Part shown: piece after piece, positions 3,087 through 18,421 of the stretch
How the letters are laid out: the number at the start of each line of letters is the position of its first letter
How positions within the stretch are numbered: the first letter of the stretch is position 1
Origin: a bacterium
GTDB lineage: Bacteria; Cyanobacteriota; Vampirovibrionia; Gastranaerophilales; Gastranaerophilaceae
DNA: 64,000 bases
Assembly (NCBI GenBank): GCA_017396025.1
Contig: JAFQNF010000044.1
Coordinates: 1 to 64,000 of the forward strand
Reading direction: 5' to 3'
The notes under the pieces: generated by a model
The model's input: the letters and a program-made list of their open reading frames with translations, nothing else
Database searches by the model: none
Told to the model about the DNA's origin: nothing
Translations under genes and position numbers: made by a program

Positions 3087-4370
3087 ATGCCTGCGATTAT
3101 TACAGCAATTGAACAAAACTCAATCGCAGAAGAACTTGAAATAGAAGTTGGAAGCGAACTTCTTAGTATTAATGGCGAAAAGCTAAAAGACTATATTGAG
3201 TATCAATATGCTGTTATGGCAGAAGAACTTGTTTTTGAAATCAAAACACCTAATGGAGAAATTGAAGAATACGAAATAGAAAAAGACTTTGAAGAAGAAC
3301 TTGGTTTTGTTTTTGAATCTGCTATTTTTGATAGAATAAAACCTTGTGCAAATAACTGTATTTTTTGCTTCGTTGACCAACAACCAGAAGGATTAAGAGA
3401 TTCTTTATATATTAAAGATGATGATTATAGACTCTCTTATCTTCAAGGAACTTATGTGACGCTAACAAACCTTACAAAAAAAGATAAAGAAAGAATTGCT
3501 AGCCAACATTTGGGACCATTATTTATTTCAGTGCATACAACTAACCCTGAATTGCGCGCAAAAATGCTAAACAATAAAAATGCGGCAAATTTAATGAAAG
3601 AACTTGATTTTCTTGAAGAAAACGATATTCCAATAAATACTCAAGTTGTTTTATGCCCAGATTATAACGATGGGGCAGAATTGGAACGAACTCTTAATGA
3701 CTTATGGAAATACAAATCAATACTCAATTCAATAGCAATTGTGCCTGTTGGAATAACAAAATTTAGACAAGAAAAAATAAAACAAGTTGATAAAGAAAAA
3801 GCAATTGAAACAATTGAGATTGTTGAAAAATTCAATAAAAAAATCAAAAAGAATATTGCTAGTGTTTCTGATGAATTTTTCTTGATGGCAGAGAAAGAAT
3901 TACCCGAGAAAAAATATTATAACGGATATAGCCAACTTGAAGATGGTGTTGGTTCATTAAGATGTTTAATTGATGATTTTAAAAAACGAATAAAAAAAGT
4001 TCCTAAAACAGTTAAATCTCAAAAAGAATTTACAGTTGCTTGTTCTGTTAGCGCCAAGGATGCTTTTATAATGTTTGCTGACCAGTTAAATAAAATTGAT
4101 GGAATTAACTTGCAGGTTCATCCTATTAAAAGTGATTTTTGGGGAGAAGATGTTAATGTTGCTGGGCTTATTACTGCACAAGATTTAATTAATCAATTAA
4201 AAGGTATTTGTCATAAAAATGTAATTATTCCTTCTATTGTTCTGAGACCATATACAACTGAATTTTTAGATGGATTGACTGTTGAAGATGTCGAAAAAGA
4301 AATTGACGCCAAAATTCATATTACACAAGATATTTATAGTGTGAAAGAATTGTTTGAATTGTTGTTTTGA
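3087..4370 (+). CDS. DUF512 radical SAM / PDZ protein, cyanobacterial type
   Basis: 427 residues: an N-terminal PDZ-like segment (1-60, SIAEELEIEVGSELLSING), a radical-SAM-like Fe-S part with cysteines 87, 91 and 94 (CANNCIFCFVDQ), and a C-terminal DUF512 domain (about 225-427). The family is described as a putative FeS oxidoreductase typical of cyanobacteria and also found in clostridia; the reaction is unknown. The sequence IKPCxNxCxFCFVDQ is a strong family signature. Co-transcribed with padR. The placement supports a cyanobacterial-lineage host, but function is not established. Confidence 0.85.
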   Translation: MPAIITAIEQNSIAEELEIEVGSELLSINGEKLKDYIEYQYAVMAEELVFEIKTPNGEIEEYEIEKDFEEELGFVFESAIFDRIKPCANNCIFCFVDQQPEGLRDSLYIKDDDYRLSYLQGTYVTLTNLTKKDKERIASQHLGPLFISVHTTNPELRAKMLNNKNAANLMKELDFLEENDIPINTQVVLCPDYNDGAELERTLNDLWKYKSILNSIAIVPVGITKFRQEKIKQVDKEKAIETIEIVEKFNKKIKKNIASVSDEFFLMAEKELPEKKYYNGYSQLEDGVGSLRCLIDDFKKRIKKVPKTVKSQKEFTVACSVSAKDAFIMFADQLNKIDGINLQVHPIKSDFWGEDVNVAGLITAQDLINQLKGICHKNVIIPSIVLRPYTTEFLDGLTVEDVEKEIDAKIHITQDIYSVKELFELLF

Positions 4371-4395
4371 AACAAATAAATAATGTTATTTATAT

Positions 4396-4490
4396 GTCGC
4401 TGCGAGCAAATATTATTTGCGTGGCAGTCTTTTGCAATGACTTCGAATCACGAGATTGCTTCGTCACCTAGTTCCTCGCAAAGACGAAAA
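4396..4490. repeat. Degenerate palindromic repeat, copy R1
   Basis: Contains GTCGCTGCGAGC, CGTGGCAGTC, GAGATTGCTTCGTCAC and CCTCGCAAAGACG. These are degenerate forms of GTCATTGCGAGC...CGTGGCAATCTAG and its reverse complement, seen again at 7819-7892 and 8728-8758. It lies between the 3' ends of the DUF512 and helicase genes. Its GC content is higher than that of the surroundings. It probably represents two adjacent units of a small dispersed palindromic element. Confidence 0.6.
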
Positions 4491-4564
4491 CCTCTTGTTC
4501 TGAAAAGTTGGACAGAAAAAATTATTTTATACAAGACAACTATCAATAACATTATTTATGAATT

Positions 4565-4590
4565 AAAAGCCTCGATTATTCGAGGCTTTT
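4565..4590. terminator. Bidirectional intrinsic terminator
   Basis: AAAAGCCTCGA-ttat-TCGAGGCTTTT forms an 11-bp perfect stem with T-runs on both strands. It sits between convergent genes (DUF512 on plus, helicase on minus) and can end both. Confidence 0.85.
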
Positions 4591-4593
4591 TAA

Positions 4594-7500
4594 TTACATA
4601 TCTATAAAAATATTTTTAATTCTTTCAACGCAACCTTGTGGACTAGTGTACCATTCGCGGTAAGAAATTCTTTCTACTATTGCGCCTGCACGTTCCATTA
4701 ATGTTTGTTTTTTAATTTGTGTTTTATTCATTCTTGCATTATCTTCAACACCGTCGCATTCAACAACGATTGTTCTACCTGTTGGGTCTTGAACAGTTAG
4801 GTCTGCGCTAAAGCCTGCAAGTGTTTGCCCTGCAACTACATTAAAGCCTTCATCTCTTAAGAAGCTTGCAACTTCTCTTTCAAATGCGTTTTTATAAACA
4901 TTTTCATCAAGTTTTAGTTCTTCTTTTAGATTGTTTCTTGCAACATAAGCTTGAACGAACTCAATATAATCTCTTAATAGACCAGCTGGTAATGATTTAG
5001 GATCTTTTGATAAGAAGATAATTTGTTTTTTTCTTGCACGAGTAATTGCAACGTTAAACAAGTTTGGTATTTGTAAGAATGTCAAACTTTGGTTAAAGCT
5101 GTTGTTTGCAACTGCCCAAGATAGCATTATGATATCTCTTTCATCACCTTGGAATGTATGCGCTGTACCAACTTCAATCTTATGTCTTCTTACAGTTGCG
5201 TCAGAAAATACTTGAGCAATGGCTTTCTTGATTAATTCCACTTGCCCTCTGAATGGTGAAATAATACCAACAGATACAGGCTCATGGTCTTCCTTATTGT
5301 TTCTTTCATCATCTTGAATAATTTCTTGAAGTCTTTGCATAATTGCCTCAACCTCTGGCATGTTACGGGTTATATCCATATCAACTTTGCCCTCTGGTAC
5401 TTCAACAAATTCTAATACATTAGAATCGTTGCATTGAGACATTATTCTAATTCTATCGCCATAAAATTCTTTGTTGCTGAAATCAATAATTGGCGCAAAA
5501 CTTCTAAAGTGTTCATCAAGCAATACCGGTTTTGTTGAATAATAGTTTGCTAAATCAAACATAGAGTTCGTTCTGAAACGCCACATTAATTGATATTTAT
5601 CAGGAATTTCATATTGGCTTAAGAATGATTGTTCTTTTGATTTTTCTAAGAAAGATAAGTGTGGTAATTGTTTGTCGTCACCAACAATAACTGCTTTTTT
5701 ACATCTGAATAAAATTGGCAGACAGCTTGCAATATCACATTGTGAAGCTTCATCAATAATTGCTACATCAAATAACCCTGGTTTTAATGGCAGAGAATTT
5801 GAAATTGCATAAGTTGTAACACACCAGCAAGGGAATGCTTCTAAAAGTGGTTTGAAGTCTTCATCTTCAAGTAATCTGTTTTGAAGATTTTTCTTTCTTG
5901 TTGTAAGTGCTTTTGTATGAACGATTAAACGTTGACGTTTAATTTGGTCACGTAATAAGCCCTTTAATGAGTTTCTTCTTTTGCCTCTTAGAATTTCAAT
6001 AGCCAAAGTTTTTTGTTTTTTCTTTAGCATTTTGATTTCTTCTAAAATTGCGTGAATATTACCAATTTTGAAAATTTGAGTTTCAATATATCTTGCCTGC
6101 GTTGATAATCTAGCAATTCCAAGTTCTAACTTTAAGCGTTCAATATTTTCAAAATCTGGTTTAAAGTCTTTATTTTGAATGATTTTCTTTAATTGATGAT
6201 TAGCAAATTTTGTTGTCATATCAGCAAAGAAGCCTTGTTTTTCAGCATTCTTTTCTAGGTTTTTAATTGCGCCATCAATATCATCAACTTCTTGCATTGT
6301 TAATTTGCCTGTTAAGAATTGAAGCGAACCAATTTGCTTTTCTTTCTCATCACGTTCTTTAATTATTTTTTGCCATTGTTCTTCAAGTTTGATGATTTCT
6401 TCGCACTTGTTTTCTCTTTCACGGATTGAAAGTACAAGTTTTTGCATATCTTCAACATCAACTAAGATAGAACCCTCAAAGTCTGTATCAAGGTCAACTT
6501 TATTAGAAATTAAGTCTTGCAAGTCAAAAGATAATTGCTTTTGATAGTTTGGACGACCAGCTCTTAATGCTAGATATGGTGCGCCAAAATCGTTTAAACG
6601 ATTTGCAACTACGTCTGTTGCTTTATCCATTCTTGAAGCTACAAGGACTGTTTTGCCGTTAGAAACTAAGTGACAAATTAAGTTTACAATTGTTTGAGAT
6701 TTACCTGTTCCAGGCGGCCCGTAAACAGATAGGATTGTGTTATCTTCTAAATTTTTGATTACATCTTCTTGTGAATCACTTAATGACAAAGGCGTTACTG
6801 CAACAAAGTCTTTCAAGTTGCTATCTTTAATAGGTTTTGATGCCATTTTTCCTTTGCCTTGCATATATTCTTCGTTAACTACGTTTAAAGCAGTTTCTCT
6901 GATAATTCCAGATGGACGTTCTGCAATTTGAGTTAACTCGTATAAAACACCTGCGGTTACAAGTGGTCTTTTTGTAAGGATGATTGCACTTTTATTTGAA
7001 ATAACAACCTTGTCAGCTTTTAATTTTGCTTTTGGTTTTTCAGTTTCTGAAGCTGCAGCTGCTTCTTCAATTGCTTCATCTAGGTTTTCGTAATTTATTT
7101 GTTTTTCTTCACCATAAAATGCTTCTGCTATATCTTTTATGTTGTTTTCTAATGATTCATCATTTTCTTTTAATTCAAATTCTAAATCTGGAATTAATGA
7201 TTTTAGGGTTGTTAAAAAAATATTTAGTTCTTCTTCTTTTAATGGAAGTTTTGGCACAACTTCAAGAAGACCATCTAACATATTATCGATTTCATCTTCT
7301 TCACCAGAAACATTCATTAAGCTTGTAAGAGCTGCTGTATTTAAAGATAAGCCCTCTTCTTGAATAGAACATTCAATGTTCATACCAACACGCTCTAGTT
7401 TACAGCTAGAGTATAAAATTGGAGTTAAAAATTCATTTTTACGTTTTGTTTTAGCGTTTTTACCAACTAAGAATAAATAACCATAGATTAAGTATTTATC

Positions 7501-11256: not shown

Positions 11257-11390
11257 CTTTTTCTCCAATCAAAACTAGTTTTTTCTATAACTATATTTTA
11301 TTACAAACAAAAATTTTGGATGATTTTCAATTAAAAGAATGATATGAAAAGTATAAAAATATTATAGAATTTTCATAATAGGAGGTTAGT

Positions 11391-11939
11391 ATGTCCGAGA
11401 TTATTAGTTTAGAAAATATTTTGTGGACAATAGCTGTGTTTTCAACAGTTTTATATGTCTTAAAACTATTAGTGTTTATGCTTGTTGGTGGTGATATTGA
11501 AGTAGATGCAGATTTTGACTCTATTACTGAAGTTGAAACATCATTTACTTTTCTTTCTGTTCAATCAGTTCTTGCCTTTTTAATGGGTTTTGGTTGGTGC
11601 GGTATTTCTGCAATGATTCAATTTAAACTACCTTGGGTGATTACAATGTTTATAGCATTTATCGCTGGTATGCTTTGTATGTTTGTTTCTGCATACTTAA
11701 TGTTTAGCATTAAAAAGTTAAACAAAAAAGTTATTATAGAATTAAAAGAACTTGAGGGAAAAGAGGGTAAGGCTTATACAACATTTGAACCTAAATCTGG
11801 TGGTCAAATAGAAATAAATTTAAATAATAAACTTACAATATTAAATGCTGAGAGTTTATCAGATGAGAAAATTGAAGCGTTTTCCCAAATTAAAGTTGAA
11901 AAAGTTGAAAATAATATAGTATACATAGTCAAGATATAA
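11391..11939 (+). CDS. YqiJ-like membrane protein with OB-fold end
   Basis: 182 residues with about three membrane helices (residues 10-32, 52-75 and 83-105) followed by a soluble beta-rich end (LKELEGKEGKAYTTFEPKSG onward) like the OB domain of NfeD/YqiJ proteins. Such proteins are partners of flotillins, and the flotillin gene begins 11 nt downstream. The start has a strong AGGAGG six to seven bases upstream. The pair is expected to organise membrane microdomains or act in envelope stress; the direct role is not known. Confidence 0.75.
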   Translation: MSEIISLENILWTIAVFSTVLYVLKLLVFMLVGGDIEVDADFDSITEVETSFTFLSVQSVLAFLMGFGWCGISAMIQFKLPWVITMFIAFIAGMLCMFVSAYLMFSIKKLNKKVIIELKELEGKEGKAYTTFEPKSGGQIEINLNNKLTILNAESLSDEKIEAFSQIKVEKVENNIVYIVKI

Positions 11940-11949
11940 GGAGAAAAGT

Positions 11950-13371
11950 ATGTTTTTTATGTCTATTGGTGGATTGTTTGCTTTATTTCTATTTGCTGCC
12001 TTAGTCTTTTTAGCAAATCAGTACAAACGCTGTCCATCTAACAAAATTATCGTAGTGTACGGTAAAACAGGTACAAATTCTACCGCAAAATGTATCCACG
12101 GTGGAGGTACATTTGTTATTCCATTGATTCAAGATTATGGCGTTTTATCTTTAGAACCAATGGCAACGGATATTGACCTTAGAGGTGCTTTGTCAAAAGG
12201 AAACATTCGTGTTGCAGTTCCATCTACTTTTACTTTTGGTATTTCAACAAAAGAAGAAATTATGATAAATGCTGCTGAACGTTTATTAGGCTTATCTAAA
12301 GATGATATTATTATTCAGGCAAGTGATATTATTTTAGGTCAATTACGTCTTGCAATTGCAACATTAACTATTGAAGAAATTAACCAAGATAGAGAAAAAT
12401 TCTTGGAACAAATCAATACAAACGTAAATACCGAGTTGAATAAAATAGGTTTAGAAATTATCAACGTAAACATCAAAGATATTACAGATGAATCTGGGTA
12501 TATTGATGCGATTGGTAAAAAAGCTGCTGCTGAAGCTATTAACAAAGCAAAAGTTGAAGTAGCTCAACAAGAAAAATTTGGTGCAGTTGGTGAAGCAGAA
12601 GCAAATAAAGATAAAGAAGTTCAAGTAGCAGAACAAACCGCTCAAACAGAAATTGGTAGAACAAATGCTCAAAAAGAACAACGTATTAAAACAGCAAGTT
12701 TAGAAGCAGAAGCTGTTGAAGGTGAAAACATTGCGAAAGCTAATATCGCTGATTACAATGCTACATTGGCAGTGAAACAAGCTGAAGCATTAAAGCTGGG
12801 TGAAGTTGCAAAAGCGAATGCTGAACGTGATGTATTAATGGCTCAAAAAGAACAAGAAGAAGCAAGATTAAAGAAAGAAGAACTTGCTAGACAAGAAGTT
12901 GAAAAATTAAAAATCCAAGTTGAAGCTGACGCAGAAGCAGAAAGACAAAGAAGAATTGCGCTTGGTGAAGCTGATGCAATTAAGGCAAGATACTTTGCTG
13001 AAGCGGAAGGTATTAAAGCGGTTCTTGAAGCGAAAGCAAAAGGTTATGAAGAACTTGTTAAAATTAGTAATAACAAACCAGAACTTGCAACAAGCTTCTT
13101 AATGATTGAAAAAATCGAAAGTATTGTTGAAAGACAAGTTGAAGCTATTAAAAATATTAAATTTGATAAAATCACAGTTTGGGATGGTGGTTCTGGAACA
13201 GATAAAGGTTCTACAACTGCAAATTTTATGCGTGATTTAATTAAATCACTTCCTGCTATGCACGATTTGGCAAGCCAAGCTGGTGTTGAACTACCACAAA
13301 TTTTAGGTAAAGTTGCAGGGCAAGAGGAAATAAAAGAAGAAGTTGTAAAAGTTGTAGAAGATGAAGAATAA
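11950..13371 (+). CDS. Flotillin-like SPFH protein (YqiK type)
   Basis: 473 residues. An N-terminal membrane helix (4-22) is followed by an SPFH domain (about 25-200, RCPSNKIIVVYGK) and a long Ala/Glu/Lys/Gln-rich coiled coil (about 195-370, many repeats of EAxAxKDKE type). The C-terminal segment is flexible and acidic. Flotillins oligomerise at the membrane. AAGGAG precedes the ATG. It is the second gene of the yqiJ-yqiK-type pair and is closed by the terminator at 13396. Confidence 0.9.
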   Translation: MFFMSIGGLFALFLFAALVFLANQYKRCPSNKIIVVYGKTGTNSTAKCIHGGGTFVIPLIQDYGVLSLEPMATDIDLRGALSKGNIRVAVPSTFTFGISTKEEIMINAAERLLGLSKDDIIIQASDIILGQLRLAIATLTIEEINQDREKFLEQINTNVNTELNKIGLEIINVNIKDITDESGYIDAIGKKAAAEAINKAKVEVAQQEKFGAVGEAEANKDKEVQVAEQTAQTEIGRTNAQKEQRIKTASLEAEAVEGENIAKANIADYNATLAVKQAEALKLGEVAKANAERDVLMAQKEQEEARLKKEELARQEVEKLKIQVEADAEAERQRRIALGEADAIKARYFAEAEGIKAVLEAKAKGYEELVKISNNKPELATSFLMIEKIESIVERQVEAIKNIKFDKITVWDGGSGTDKGSTTANFMRDLIKSLPAMHDLASQAGVELPQILGKVAGQEEIKEEVVKVVEDEE

Positions 13372-13395
13372 CTTTTATAATTGATTACAAAAAAG

Positions 13396-13419
13396 AGCGG
13401 TTAATTACCGCTTTTTTTT
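13396..13419 (+). terminator. Intrinsic terminator after flotillin gene
   Basis: AGCGGT-taatt-ACCGCT followed by eight T. It lies 24 nt after the flotillin stop and just before the promoter of the first U32-like gene. Confidence 0.85.
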
Positions 13420-13422
13420 GTG

Positions 13423-13478
13423 TTGAAAATTATGCTATACTTTTGCTGAGGAATTAAGAAGGAAATATTTAATAAATG
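13423..13478 (+). promoter_or_regulatory. Promoter/leader of first U32-like gene (copy A)
   Basis: Extended -10 TGC-TATACT (13433-13441), then GCTGAGGAATTAAGAAGGAA and ATG at 13476. It matches nearly base for base the leader of the second gene at 14620-14674. No convincing -35 hexamer is seen, since that position falls in the T-run of the preceding terminator, as expected for an extended -10 promoter. Confidence 0.6.
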
Positions 13479-14603
13479 TACGAATTTAGTGCACCAATGC
13501 CGTTTGAATTTGAACATATTGATAAACTTGTTGAAATAAATAACAATGTTACTAAAAGTAAAATAACATCTTTATATTTTGGGGTTCCAAGAAGTTGCTA
13601 TGACCTTACTGGTTTTGAATCTTTGAGGTCAAGTTACGATAAGTATACAACATTTGATTATTGGGCAGAAAGGATCATATATGCAAAAAATAAAAATTTT
13701 GATTTCGTATATTTATTGAACAATCCTCGAGGACTTGCAGATATAGATAAAGTCTTAGATATGCAGTTGAAAAAGTTAGATAAATTAATAAACAATCTTC
13801 GTAAGATAGGATGTAATAAATTGAGGGTAGCTAGTCTTCAATTACTTGCATATATTTCAAAAACATATCCAGATATGGAACTATATGCATCTACAACCTT
13901 GGAGTTTAATACTATACAAGAATTTCAGGTCTTCTTTGAAATGTATCCAACGGTAAAAGAAATTGTTCCATCATTTAAGGCAAATAAAAATTTTAAAATG
14001 TTATCTAATTTGAGAAACCAGTTTCCTAATTATGATATTGAATTAATTACAAATGAAGGATGTATTGTTGGGTGTCCAGCTAGGATTCAACATTGTACTT
14101 CTATACCTTATTTTTTCTCTACAAAAGATCTATATTCTAATAGAGATGAAGTTTTTTCACATTGGTTTTTTTCCGAAAAATGTTGCGAATATTCAATAAA
14201 AAATCTTGCATTGTTTATTTGCCAAAATAAACTTATTTTACCTTGGGAAATTGAAGAGTATGCAAAAATTGGTGTAAATAAGTTTAAATTGGTTGGTCGT
14301 AATTGTGAAGATTTTACTTATGGTAGGTATATGAGTTCTTATGAAGTATATTTAACGGCAATAGAAGATTATGACAAAGTTAAAGATTTTGCATTTTCTA
14401 ATTTGAGTCATCTCTTCAGACGTTTTGGTGACTTTGTTACAATTGATACGATAAGAAAATATTTACCTAAAGTTGAATATTTTATAAAAAATGGGCATTT
14501 GTGCTCTAGTATGTGTGGTAGTGAATGCACCTATTGTTATGATTGTGCAAAAGAACTTGCTAAAGTTATAAAATTTGTAGAAGAGAAAAAAGGTGACATT
14601 TAA
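13476..14603 (+). CDS. U32 peptidase-like Fe-S protein, copy A
   Basis: 375 residues, probably a TIM-barrel protein related to the U32 family (UbiU/RlhA/YhbU types, which carry [4Fe-4S] and act in RNA or quinone hydroxylation). Evidence is NEGCIVGCPARIQH (Cys196, Cys200), LPWEIEEYAKIG and FKLVGR (253-275), matching the U32 pattern. It also has a Cys-rich end, C343-x3-C-x3-C-x2-C-x2-C357, that I do not know from characterised members. The true substrate is unknown and protease activity should not be assumed. The next gene is a close paralogue with the same leader. Confidence 0.65.
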   Translation: MYEFSAPMPFEFEHIDKLVEINNNVTKSKITSLYFGVPRSCYDLTGFESLRSSYDKYTTFDYWAERIIYAKNKNFDFVYLLNNPRGLADIDKVLDMQLKKLDKLINNLRKIGCNKLRVASLQLLAYISKTYPDMELYASTTLEFNTIQEFQVFFEMYPTVKEIVPSFKANKNFKMLSNLRNQFPNYDIELITNEGCIVGCPARIQHCTSIPYFFSTKDLYSNRDEVFSHWFFSEKCCEYSIKNLALFICQNKLILPWEIEEYAKIGVNKFKLVGRNCEDFTYGRYMSSYEVYLTAIEDYDKVKDFAFSNLSHLFRRFGDFVTIDTIRKYLPKVEYFIKNGHLCSSMCGSECTYCYDCAKELAKVIKFVEEKKGDI

Positions 14604-14619
14604 ACTGCAGTTTTGGGTA

Positions 14620-14674
14620 TTGAAAATTATGTTATACTTTTGCTGTGCAATTAAGAAGGAAATATTAATAAATG
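14620..14674 (+). promoter_or_regulatory. Promoter/leader of second U32-like gene (copy B)
   Basis: Extended -10 TGT-TATACT (14630-14638) and the same AATTAAGAAGGAAATAT leader as copy A. The duplication therefore included the promoter, and each gene can be expressed on its own. Confidence 0.6.
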
Positions 14675-15769
14675 TATAAATTTAGTGCTCCAATGCCTTT
14701 TGAATTTGAGCATATTGACAAGCTTCTGGAGATAAATAGTAAGGTAAAGAAGAGTAAAATAACTTCTTTATATTTTGCGTTGCCTGCTAATTGTCGTGAA
14801 AAAACTGGTTTTGAACAGTTAAGAACAAAATATTATATGGAAACAAAATATTCTGATTGGAAAAAACTAATTTCTTATTCTATTGAGAAAGGATTTGATT
14901 TTGTATATTTGATAAATTCGCCAAGAAATGTTTCCGATGTGGATAAAATATTAGAAATACAACTTCAAAAGTTAGATATATTGATTCAGGATTTAAAAAA
15001 AATTGGTTGTTGGACGGTTAGAGTATCAAATACTCAAATACTAGATTATGTTTTGAAAAAATATCCGGAAATTCGAGTTCTTACATCAACATCTTTTGAA
15101 CATATGCTTCTTTGTCAATATCAAATATTTCTAGCAATGTATCCGCAAATAAAAGAAATAGTTCCTTCTTTTGAAACACATAAAAATTTTAAATTATTGA
15201 AAAATTTGAGGAAGTCTTTCCCAAACTTGTTAATTGAACTTATGGTAAACGAAGGATGTATACAAGGTTGTCCAATAAGGACTCATCATAATCTTTCTGT
15301 TCCTTATTTGTATTCAAACGACTATGAAAAAAGAGAGCTGTCTCTTCGCTATGAACTTTTTAATACAAAATGTTCTGCTTTTGTTGAGAAGAATTTTTAC
15401 AATTTTATTACTAAAAATAACTTAATTTTACCGTGGGAAATCGAAGAATATAGTAAAATTGGTATAAATAATTTTAAGCTTGTAGGAAGAAATAATATTG
15501 AATTTTTTAATGGAAAATATATGAGTTTCTATGAGGCTTATTTAAGAGGGGTTGATGATTATCAGAATATAAAAAATGTACCTTATAGATTTTTAAATAA
15601 TGCTTGTATATCAATTCCTTTTCATTATTCAGTAGATGAAATAAGACCATATTTGCCCAGAATAGACCATTTTGTTAAAAAAGGACATCTATGCGCAAGT
15701 ATATGTGGAATTGAATGCACATATTGCTACGATTGTGCTAGAAAACTGAAAAATGCATTGAAAAAGTAA
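14672..15769 (+). CDS. U32 peptidase-like Fe-S protein, copy B
   Basis: 365 residues, collinear with copy A and by eye about half identical: both share the SAPMPFEFEHIDKL start, SKITSLYF, KEIVPSF, NEGC-x3-CP (Cys196, Cys200), LPWEIEEY, NFKLVGRN, and the C-terminal C341-x3-C-x3-C-x2-C-x2-C355. Differences cluster at 201-250, where His/Cys near the first motif vary, and at 300-330, which suggests different partners or substrates with the cofactor sites kept. It ends one base before the convergent nrdG stop, with no terminator between them. Confidence 0.65.
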   Translation: MYKFSAPMPFEFEHIDKLLEINSKVKKSKITSLYFALPANCREKTGFEQLRTKYYMETKYSDWKKLISYSIEKGFDFVYLINSPRNVSDVDKILEIQLQKLDILIQDLKKIGCWTVRVSNTQILDYVLKKYPEIRVLTSTSFEHMLLCQYQIFLAMYPQIKEIVPSFETHKNFKLLKNLRKSFPNLLIELMVNEGCIQGCPIRTHHNLSVPYLYSNDYEKRELSLRYELFNTKCSAFVEKNFYNFITKNNLILPWEIEEYSKIGINNFKLVGRNNIEFFNGKYMSFYEAYLRGVDDYQNIKNVPYRFLNNACISIPFHYSVDEIRPYLPRIDHFVKKGHLCASICGIECTYCYDCARKLKNALKK

Positions 15770-15770
15770 T

Positions 15771-16277
15771 TTATATAACTTTACTATTATCAAAATGGAA
15801 AACTACTTCACCAGTTTGCAATGTTTTCTGAACATCAATAATTCTTTGGTTAGAGCTTCCAACCCAATGAAGTTTTTCTTCTCTTAATGATTTTATAAAT
15901 CTACCATCAACTAAAACGTCAATGTATTTCATTTTTGGGTTATCAATGAAGTCTTCCCATAAGAAACCTGTATAAACCCATACAGTTTTATTTGGGAATT
16001 GTTCTTTAACTTTTCGCATTAAACGGAATGTTTCACCTCTATTGAATGGGTGAAGTGGATCGCCACCAGAGAATGTTATTCCTGAAATGTAAGGTTTATC
16101 TAATGCTTCAAATAATTCTGCTTCGGCTGCTTCGTCAAAAGGTAAACCGCCTGTTATATCCCAAGTTATTGGATTTTGGCAGTCTTCGCATTGGTGATTA
16201 CATCCTGCAACCCACAATACAACTCTTAGTCCGTCCCCGTTTAGCATGTCATCTTTAGTAATATTATGGTAGTTCAT
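15771..16277 (-). CDS. nrdG: Anaerobic ribonucleotide reductase activating enzyme
   Basis: 168 residues. Radical SAM activase with cysteines 26, 30 and 33 (CNHQCEDC) and the SAM-contact motif FSGGDPL near residue 70. It installs the glycyl radical on NrdD under anaerobic conditions. It lies 2 nt downstream of nrdD in the expected nrdDG operon. Length is typical. Confidence 0.95.
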   Translation of the reverse strand: MNYHNITKDDMLNGDGLRVVLWVAGCNHQCEDCQNPITWDITGGLPFDEAAEAELFEALDKPYISGITFSGGDPLHPFNRGETFRLMRKVKEQFPNKTVWVYTGFLWEDFIDNPKMKYIDVLVDGRFIKSLREEKLHWVGSSNQRIIDVQKTLQTGEVVFHFDNSKVI

Positions 16278-16279
16278 GA

Positions 16280-18421
16280 TTACATACTTTTTCTGTCTTT
16301 TATTTCTTCCATTTTTGCTTCGTTCAAACGTGTATCACCTTTTACTCTTGAGTAAGATAGGTAACCGTTCATTCTATCGATTTTTGTTAAGTTTCGGCTT
16401 CCGCATTTAGGGCAAACGTCCATATTTAATTCTTGGTGACCGCAATCATCACAATATGAAAGTGATAAGTTAACACCTTCATAGAAGCCCATATCCATCG
16501 CTCTTTCAATTAATGTTCTAATTGCTTCTTTATTGTATGCAATTGGGTATTTTACATATTGGATTTTTCCGCCATTCATCAAATTCCAAAATCTATTTTC
16601 TAAGTTTTGTTTTTCAATTGGAGTAATATCTTCTGAAACGTGACAATGGAAGCTGTTTGAAACATATCCTCTATCAGATACATTGGCAACAACGCCATAT
16701 TTTTCTCTAAATTGTTTTACTTGAAGACCGCAAAGGTTTTCTGCTGGTGTTCCATAAAGTGCATATAAGTTGCCGTCTTCTTCTTTGAACTCGTTTACAC
16801 GTTTGTTAATGTATTCCATTACTTCAACAGCAAATTGACCATCTTCAACTAATGATTTGCCGTTGTGGATTTGTTGAAGTTCGTTTAATGCTGTAATACC
16901 AAACGAAGCTGTTGCTGCTTTTAATAACGGTTTAATCTTATCGTGAAAACCTAAATGACCGCCCAAGAAACCACCTTCACAGTACGCAAGTGGGTTTGTT
17001 GAAGCTTTCATTTCACCTAAATATTCATAAGTTCTGATGTGAAGTTTTCTGATTAATTGTAAGTAGTAATCTAAAACTTCATAGAAATCTTTACTTTCTT
17101 TTTTCGCTTTAGCATAAATCATTGGTAAGTGTAGGCTGATAGCACCAATGTTAAAACGACCAACAAAAATTGGCTTGTCGTTTTCGTTTGCAGGATACAT
17201 TCCTCCTTCTTCATACCAAGGAGATAAAAACGCTCTGCAACCCATTGGAGAAATAACTCTTTTGTACTTTTTGTACATACTAGCAACATAACCGTCGCCT
17301 GTTAAACTTAACCAATCTGGATACATAGAACGTTGCGAACATTCAATACCTGCTTCAAATACGTCTTCAAGCTCGCAACCTTTGCCGTGCAAATCTTTAT
17401 CATATAAGAATACGATTTTAGGGAACAATACAGGTTTTTTACATTCTTTTTTACCTTGACCGCCTCTTCTTATTTCTAACGCAGTGATTGCTGCCATTTT
17501 TTCGTATTCGCCAGTGCCTAAACCAAGCGTAATTGTGATAAATGGATAGTCACCTCTAGATGAAGCCACTGTATTGAATTTGTATTCCCAACCTTGGAAA
17601 CCTTGTTCGAAATCAACCTTAACATCTTTTAGTGCTTCTTTTCTTGCATTTTCAAAAGATAATCCCATTGAGATGTATCTTTCGTATTGTTTATCATAAG
17701 TTTTTTGTGCATAAGGTGCTAATAATTTATCAACTTCTGCAACTGTGAAACCACCATACTGTTGGCTTGCTGCTGCCATAACAATATCGCCGATAACGTC
17801 GAATGCAACTGCTAATGATTTTGGTTCGTTATACCAAAGGTTACCCATTTCAAAGCCACCTTTTAGTACATTGCCAACATCAAATAAACAACAGTTCATT
17901 GTATCGCGTCTAGCTGACATATCGTGGATGTAAATATAACCATCACGGATTGCTTGTAAATCTTCAACAGTTAAGAAGAACTTTTTGTATAATTCTTTGT
18001 TTAATTGATTGAAAATTAAAGAACGTTTTGTAGAAACTAATGCAGAGTCAGAATTTGAGTTTTCCTTGTCGCCAATATACATAATTTTTTGGCTTTCTTG
18101 ATAAACTTTATCAAGCATTCTAACGAAATCTTGCTTATAGTTTCTGTAGTTTCTATAGCTTTGACCAACTTTTGGGTTAACACCTTCTAAAGCAGCTTCA
18201 ACTATATTGTGCATATCGTGGATAAGGATTTCTGTTTTTCCACAATCTTCAACATCTTTTTCTACGATAGAGCAAATTTCATTTATTTGTGCTTCAGTAA
18301 AATCTATAAGCACACGTTGTGCAGATTTTTTAACTGCATTAACAACCTTGTTTATATCAAATTTTTCCTTAGTACCGTCTTTTTTTATAACAAAAAAACA
18401 TTTAGACTCATTATTTTCCAT
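16280..18421 (-). CDS. nrdD: Anaerobic ribonucleoside-triphosphate reductase
   Basis: 713 residues. An N-terminal ATP-cone (about 8-95, KKDGTKEKFDINKVVNAVKK) gives allosteric control, followed by the ten-stranded barrel. The C-terminus has a zinc site (Cys657, Cys660, Cys670, Cys673) and the glycyl-radical loop RMNGYLS with Gly686. It makes dNTPs from NTPs and is oxygen-sensitive, pointing to an anaerobic life. GAGG lies about eight bases before the ATG. An imperfect palindrome in its leader (18453-18478) may be regulatory. Confidence 0.96.
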   Translation of the reverse strand: MENNESKCFFVIKKDGTKEKFDINKVVNAVKKSAQRVLIDFTEAQINEICSIVEKDVEDCGKTEILIHDMHNIVEAALEGVNPKVGQSYRNYRNYKQDFVRMLDKVYQESQKIMYIGDKENSNSDSALVSTKRSLIFNQLNKELYKKFFLTVEDLQAIRDGYIYIHDMSARRDTMNCCLFDVGNVLKGGFEMGNLWYNEPKSLAVAFDVIGDIVMAAASQQYGGFTVAEVDKLLAPYAQKTYDKQYERYISMGLSFENARKEALKDVKVDFEQGFQGWEYKFNTVASSRGDYPFITITLGLGTGEYEKMAAITALEIRRGGQGKKECKKPVLFPKIVFLYDKDLHGKGCELEDVFEAGIECSQRSMYPDWLSLTGDGYVASMYKKYKRVISPMGCRAFLSPWYEEGGMYPANENDKPIFVGRFNIGAISLHLPMIYAKAKKESKDFYEVLDYYLQLIRKLHIRTYEYLGEMKASTNPLAYCEGGFLGGHLGFHDKIKPLLKAATASFGITALNELQQIHNGKSLVEDGQFAVEVMEYINKRVNEFKEEDGNLYALYGTPAENLCGLQVKQFREKYGVVANVSDRGYVSNSFHCHVSEDITPIEKQNLENRFWNLMNGGKIQYVKYPIAYNKEAIRTLIERAMDMGFYEGVNLSLSYCDDCGHQELNMDVCPKCGSRNLTKIDRMNGYLSYSRVKGDTRLNEAKMEEIKDRKSM

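Follow-up and report, generated by a model that had tools for sequence, protein, structure and literature searches.

Two neighbouring genes in a Gastranaerophilaceae contig encode U32-like proteins and raise the question of which reaction these proteins catalyze, and whether they act together as one enzyme. The window, the whole stretch of DNA that we analyzed (64,000 nucleotides, contig JAFQNF010000044.1), carries them on the plus strand at 13476..14603 (ORF1, 375 aa) and 14672..15769 (ORF2, 365 aa). An earlier note on this DNA had described two collinear U32-like paralogues that share several motifs and an extra C-terminal Cys cluster and that diverge past the first Cys pair. Our comparison bears out this description. 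Both proteins lie in the same orientation and align collinearly over 366 columns with 52% identity (E=2e-144), and NEGC-x3-CP, LPWEIEEY, FKLVGR and C-x3-C-x3-C-x2-C-x2-C are each found in both. Past the first Cys pair identity falls to 36% (residues 201-225) and 28% (residues 226-250); it is 84% in residues 251-275 and 12% in residues 301-325. The NG86 estimates (dN 0.38, dS 1.42, the latter near saturation) suggest that both copies are maintained. In a tree of relatives ORF1 and ORF2 are sisters (support 99/95) and thus a tandem duplication, and most relatives of the window pair are single genes.

The similarity of the two copies includes their leaders. The earlier note had also claimed that the extended -10 leaders are duplicated, and this was indeed the case. 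A 26-bp core, TTGAAAATTATGnTATACTTTTGCTG, with a predicted extended -10 promoter by consensus reading (TGnTATACT), lies 5' of ORF1 at 13423..13448 (plus strand), and its duplicate lies 5' of ORF2 at 14620..14645 (plus strand) with one mismatch. Shuffled sequences gave no match to the core. A general role of this promoter in its own genome was rejected, since a search of the 1.59 Mb, 70%-complete assembly allowing up to three mismatches returned no copies beyond those at the two U32-like genes. Approximately 54 bp upstream of each gene are about 90% identical in an alignment read by eye, compared to 71% for the genes themselves. Between a flotillin-like gene and the U32 pair we found a hairpin that resembles a terminator and is flanked by a T run on either side (13396..13412; scored on the minus strand, with the plus-strand T run read from the sequence). 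Since this hairpin sits at the end of the flanking flotillin-like gene, the U32 pair appears to be transcribed separately from it, as one unit or several.

The pair lies in the gap between gltX and nrdG (window positions 11268-15771), a variable slot that holds unrelated genes in each relative. In relatives with the same gene order this gap contains different genes and shows no conserved synteny with the window pair, which therefore looks like a lineage-specific insert. An origin from phages or plasmids was rejected, because we found no IMG/VR or plasmid relatives and the phage matches were limited to a distant RB69-type protein. A defense system was likewise rejected, as PADLOC returned no match. 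The adjoining NrdD/NrdG genes are the reason why we regard this gut lineage as apparently anaerobic, in agreement with what the earlier note had assumed.

Family placement was analyzed by profile and by predicted structure. ORF1 scores 31.4 bits against the Pfam Peptidase_U32 model (PF01136; cut-off 22.4) and is thereby recognized as a U32 protein, while ORF2 stays below the cut-off with 17.3 bits, yet is 52% identical to ORF1. An AlphaFold model of ORF1 (pLDDT 90, pTM 0.90) found the U32 protein Mk0906 as its nearest solved fold (Foldseek E 1.7e-7; Z 17.4 over 225 residues at 3.5 A; next chain Z 13.8), and hence the predicted model has the U32 TIM-barrel fold. A sequence search of the PDB with the U32 profile gave no matches. 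The curated NCBIfam equivalogs are far from being reached: TrhP scores 13.3 bits against a cut-off of 534 and UbiU 10.7 against 440, with best E values of 0.03 and 0.2. The earlier suggestion that the enzyme could be undescribed thus finds support, in that no described family covers the pair as far as these curated U32 equivalogs are concerned.

Alignment of 41 full-length relatives revealed that C196, C200, H206 and C236 are invariant, with the fixed spacing C196-x3-C200-x5-H206-x29-C236. C41 is present in 29 of these 41 proteins, and the C-terminal residues C343, C347, C351, C354 and C357 are invariant or nearly so. In a 39-row alignment E189 is invariant, as is C196. ORF1 and ORF2 retain every family-invariant residue. 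Most U32 families carry a four-Cys pattern, CX6CX15CX3/4C, of which UbiU and UbiV use variants (PMC6747719, PMC11574389). This canonical pattern is not kept in the subfamily. TrhP requires E162, C170 and C177 (PMC6599085), and by our reading E189 and C196 would match its essential Glu and first Cys. The C-terminal Cys group could hold an Fe-S cluster of its own, so that two clusters per protein are possible, or it could supply the remaining part of a single site.

The subfamily is narrowly distributed. Among 38 near relatives (own genome counted; 0-23 copies each) 13 carry it, and a sample of 386 genomes of the phylum yielded it in 7. All copies in near relatives, except for one distant match, belong to one Gastranaerophilales genus, and one publicly available relative, L031, is a MAG of Candidatus Gastranaerophilales. 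Several unusual copies were seen. In genome G014, in which we found no PF14305 gene (the ATP-grasp family described below), two divergent relatives (L048:7735-8919 and L049:7501-8682) have N-termini that resemble twin-arginine or lipobox signals, suggesting that they may be exported versions. In genome G021 two near-identical copies (L050:6470-7578 and 17190-18298) are each broken into two overlapping ORFs, either because a gene that was already broken has recently been duplicated or because the assembly is faulty. Finally, an ORF at L047:9937-10971 has U32-like motifs (CYSNCPN ... IKLQGR) without Pfam recognition and lies between a TupA-like ATP-grasp gene and a radical SAM gene; it is possibly a second U32 branch.

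What surrounds the relatives hints toward the substrate. Many U32 relatives are adjoined by a TupA-like ATP-grasp gene (PF14305, Ddl-like fold) followed by a short ORF. A leader model built on ten of these short ORFs and iterated over the loci of the relatives recovered 107 different ORFs. They share an acidic leader (consensus approximately MNxDxIENLSxEEIxxLYxDI), followed by hypervariable cores, mostly of tens to about 140 residues and rich in Y, G, C and S. The number of Cys residues is even in 97 of the 107, and an ATP-grasp gene lies directly upstream of 87. No NCBIfam model matched any of 40 precursors, and the few precursors run against Pfam were without significant match. For two genomes a cut-off of E 1 gives 52 and 66 matches to the leader, and their PF14305 genes number 47 and 48. 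In G009 and G022 (many loci within L122-L181) two-gene ATP-grasp/precursor cassettes are scattered through the genome, about 50 or more in each, and they frequently lie at the end of a contig, as though the assembly had been broken by repeats. In G020 and G007 some neighbors of ATP-grasp genes encode rSAM-SPASM proteins, one of them with a weak PqqD-like part, and one radical SAM family abuts U32 or precursor genes in 9 of 9 copies. Upstream of nrdD in genome G011 (L202:1-1170) a translated unit, IITYFKLRENQN, recurs with spacers that vary, and this stretch looks like a CRISPR array.

A U32-like gene lies within 1.5 kb of 20 of the 107 precursor ORFs, and in 15 of these cases it follows directly downstream, with the same orientation and no more than 300 nt away, although this adjacency is partly circular, since the seeds of the leader model were ORFs beside U32 genes; the linkage to PF14305 is independent of the seeds. 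Among 43 same-strand ORFs downstream of precursors U32 accounts for 15 and is the main recurrent family, nearly all others being one-off. U32 copies lie within 1.5 kb of PF14305 in 15 of 23 cases in G009 (p ~2e-10), 3 of 5 in G007 (7e-6) and 5 of 8 in G022 (3e-4); the other genus members with both genes have no U32 copy within this distance. In the fullest cassette (G007, L034) an ATP-grasp gene, which has one in-frame TAG, is followed by a precursor with leader and Cys, then by radical SAM and finally by U32. Most ATP-grasp/precursor cassettes are without U32, and U32 would consequently be an optional step. Tyr is nominally enriched in U32-linked cores (p 0.03, uncorrected); as this signal fails multiple-test correction, Tyr as the target by core composition was rejected.

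In the genome of the window itself a single PF14305 gene is present, on contig C27 (L102); after it come a precursor of 71 aa, which has four Cys, and a member of the radical SAM family described above. A conserved leader with a variable core beside modifying enzymes, as expected of RiPPs, is thus found in the relatives and in the C27 cassette, but not at the window locus. The U32 pair is located on contig C25 and is not linked to any precursor or to the C27 cassette, and its nearest relatives, in G010 and G020, are likewise unlinked. The role of the pair in peptide modification therefore rests on family membership and on the four-gene cassette of G007.

The genes next to the relatives encode ATP-grasp proteins, precursor-like peptides and radical SAM enzymes, and they point to peptide modification. 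We consider peptide tailoring by the subfamily probable. For the window pair, where the argument runs via the family and not via linkage, the balance tips only slightly toward the same role. That the subfamily consists of Fe-S enzymes which tailor peptides without O2, in a RiPP-like system that is apparently undescribed, has, in our judgment, about an even chance. Altogether, we infer Fe-S binding, a peptide substrate, hydroxylation and action in trans. The U32 proteins would be soluble TIM-barrel Fe-S enzymes, specific to Gastranaerophilales, that act on ribosomally made peptides. The acidic leader of the precursor would recruit the enzymes, the ATP-grasp protein would form an amide or ester bond on the core, and the U32 enzyme would oxidize the core independently of O2, most likely by prephenate-dependent hydroxylation of side chains. 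Paired Cys could afterwards form disulfides or other crosslinks. TrhP and RlhA need prephenate (PMC6599085), which is why prephenate is proposed here as the oxygen source. A prephenate dehydratase is encoded in the genome of the window, where the U32 pair, a tandem duplication including its promoter, would act in trans, for example on the 71-aa precursor ORF of C27. Hydroxylation as the chemistry is a tentative assignment, with somewhat less than even odds. The broader proposal of an undescribed RiPP class of gut Gastranaerophilales (at most about 50-66 cassettes per genome), with two-Cys-cluster U32 enzymes hydroxylating peptide side chains without O2, is plausible but falls somewhat short of even odds.

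Other readings have to be weighed against peptide tailoring. The earlier note had proposed a two-subunit enzyme acting on RNA or quinones, similar to UbiU-UbiV, a heterodimer with one [4Fe-4S] in each subunit (PMC6747719). The tandem arrangement of two U32-like genes would fit such a hydroxylase, C41 lies roughly at the position of UbiV C39 (compared by eye only), and in G009 and G022 two tandem U32 pairs (L043, L044) are conserved as pairs of different clades and may form heterodimers. However, the sister relationship of ORF1 and ORF2 and the predominance of single genes speak against two subunits at the window, the NCBIfam scores place the pair outside UbiU and TrhP, none of the RNA or quinone genes that the note had suggested looking for is linked, and the neighbors of the relatives point to peptides. 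We consider this reading very improbable. The window pair could instead have drifted to another job, for instance small-molecule or sugar oxidation, while the subfamily elsewhere serves peptides. This would agree with the missing linkage to a precursor, both here and in G010 and G020, and with distant relatives in non-peptide contexts, for example the gene that RB69-type phages carry in a region for DNA arabinosylation. Such drift is nevertheless unlikely, given that both copies retain all invariant residues of the subfamily and that their own genome has an ATP-grasp/precursor/rSAM cassette of a kind whose relatives carry U32.

The historical name of the family and the position of U32 genes directly after precursor genes would also suit a peptidase that removes the leader. 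Yet all precursors would need leader removal and most of their cassettes are without U32, the invariant residues are Cys and His resembling metal ligands and not a protease triad, and a C39-type protease/transporter exists in the genome of the window and in a few relatives; such a function appears highly improbable. Alternatively, the short ORFs might be secreted Cys-rich proteins that the TupA-like ATP-grasp enzyme attaches to a glycan of the cell surface, in which case U32 would belong to the glycan pathway. In Campylobacter a TupA-like ATP-grasp domain makes amide bonds on capsule glucuronate (PMC11800379), and even Cys counts suit secreted disulfide proteins. The N-terminus of the short ORFs, however, reads as an acidic leader and not as a signal peptide, the cassettes include rSAM-SPASM enzymes and a PqqD-like part, and they are scattered units of two or three genes outside glycan clusters, which makes a glycan pathway quite improbable.

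Compared to the U32 oxidases TrhP, RlhA and UbiU-UbiV, the subfamily shares the U32 fold and the conserved Glu and Cys motif, and Fe-S binding and O2-independence are likely on this comparison. It differs by the C-x3-C ... C236 arrangement with an invariant His, the extra C-terminal five-Cys cluster, its RiPP-like neighbors and the lack of an equivalog score. To our knowledge, RNA bases and quinones are the substrates of the U32 oxidases described so far, and we know of no U32 protein with peptide side chains as substrate. If the proposal is correct, it would widen U32 chemistry to peptides in anaerobes, offer a tractable soluble substrate for the unsolved mechanism of O2-free hydroxylation, and make the cassettes a large, variable peptide repertoire of an uncultured gut lineage. 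Graspetides, the ATP-grasp RiPPs, are similar in combining an ATP-grasp ligase with a leader/core precursor and sometimes rSAM-SPASM enzymes; here, in contrast, the ATP-grasp is of the TupA type (PF14305) and the cores are long and rich in Cys and Tyr. A graspetide survey mentions neither TupA nor U32 (PMC8939145). A search of titles and abstracts, with subscription papers and preprints outside its scope, returned nothing relevant on U32 proteins with RiPPs or on RiPPs of Gastranaerophilales/Melainabacteria.

The best viral structure match of ORF1 is an RB69-type phage peptidase. The RB69-type protein (RB69ORF050c homologues), for which we came across no assigned function, is 22% identical over 94% of ORF1 and has C196, H206, C236 and a C-terminal CxxxCGxxCxxC, whereas C200 and the fifth C-terminal Cys are missing and its gene is located in a DNA arabinosylation region. 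As four of the five C-terminal Cys are shared, both proteins seem to belong to a wider U32 branch. In one phage sequence (L198, NC_025437.1) the RB69-type U32-like gene at 3492-4661 adjoins genes for arabinose-5-phosphate isomerase and phosphoheptose isomerase.
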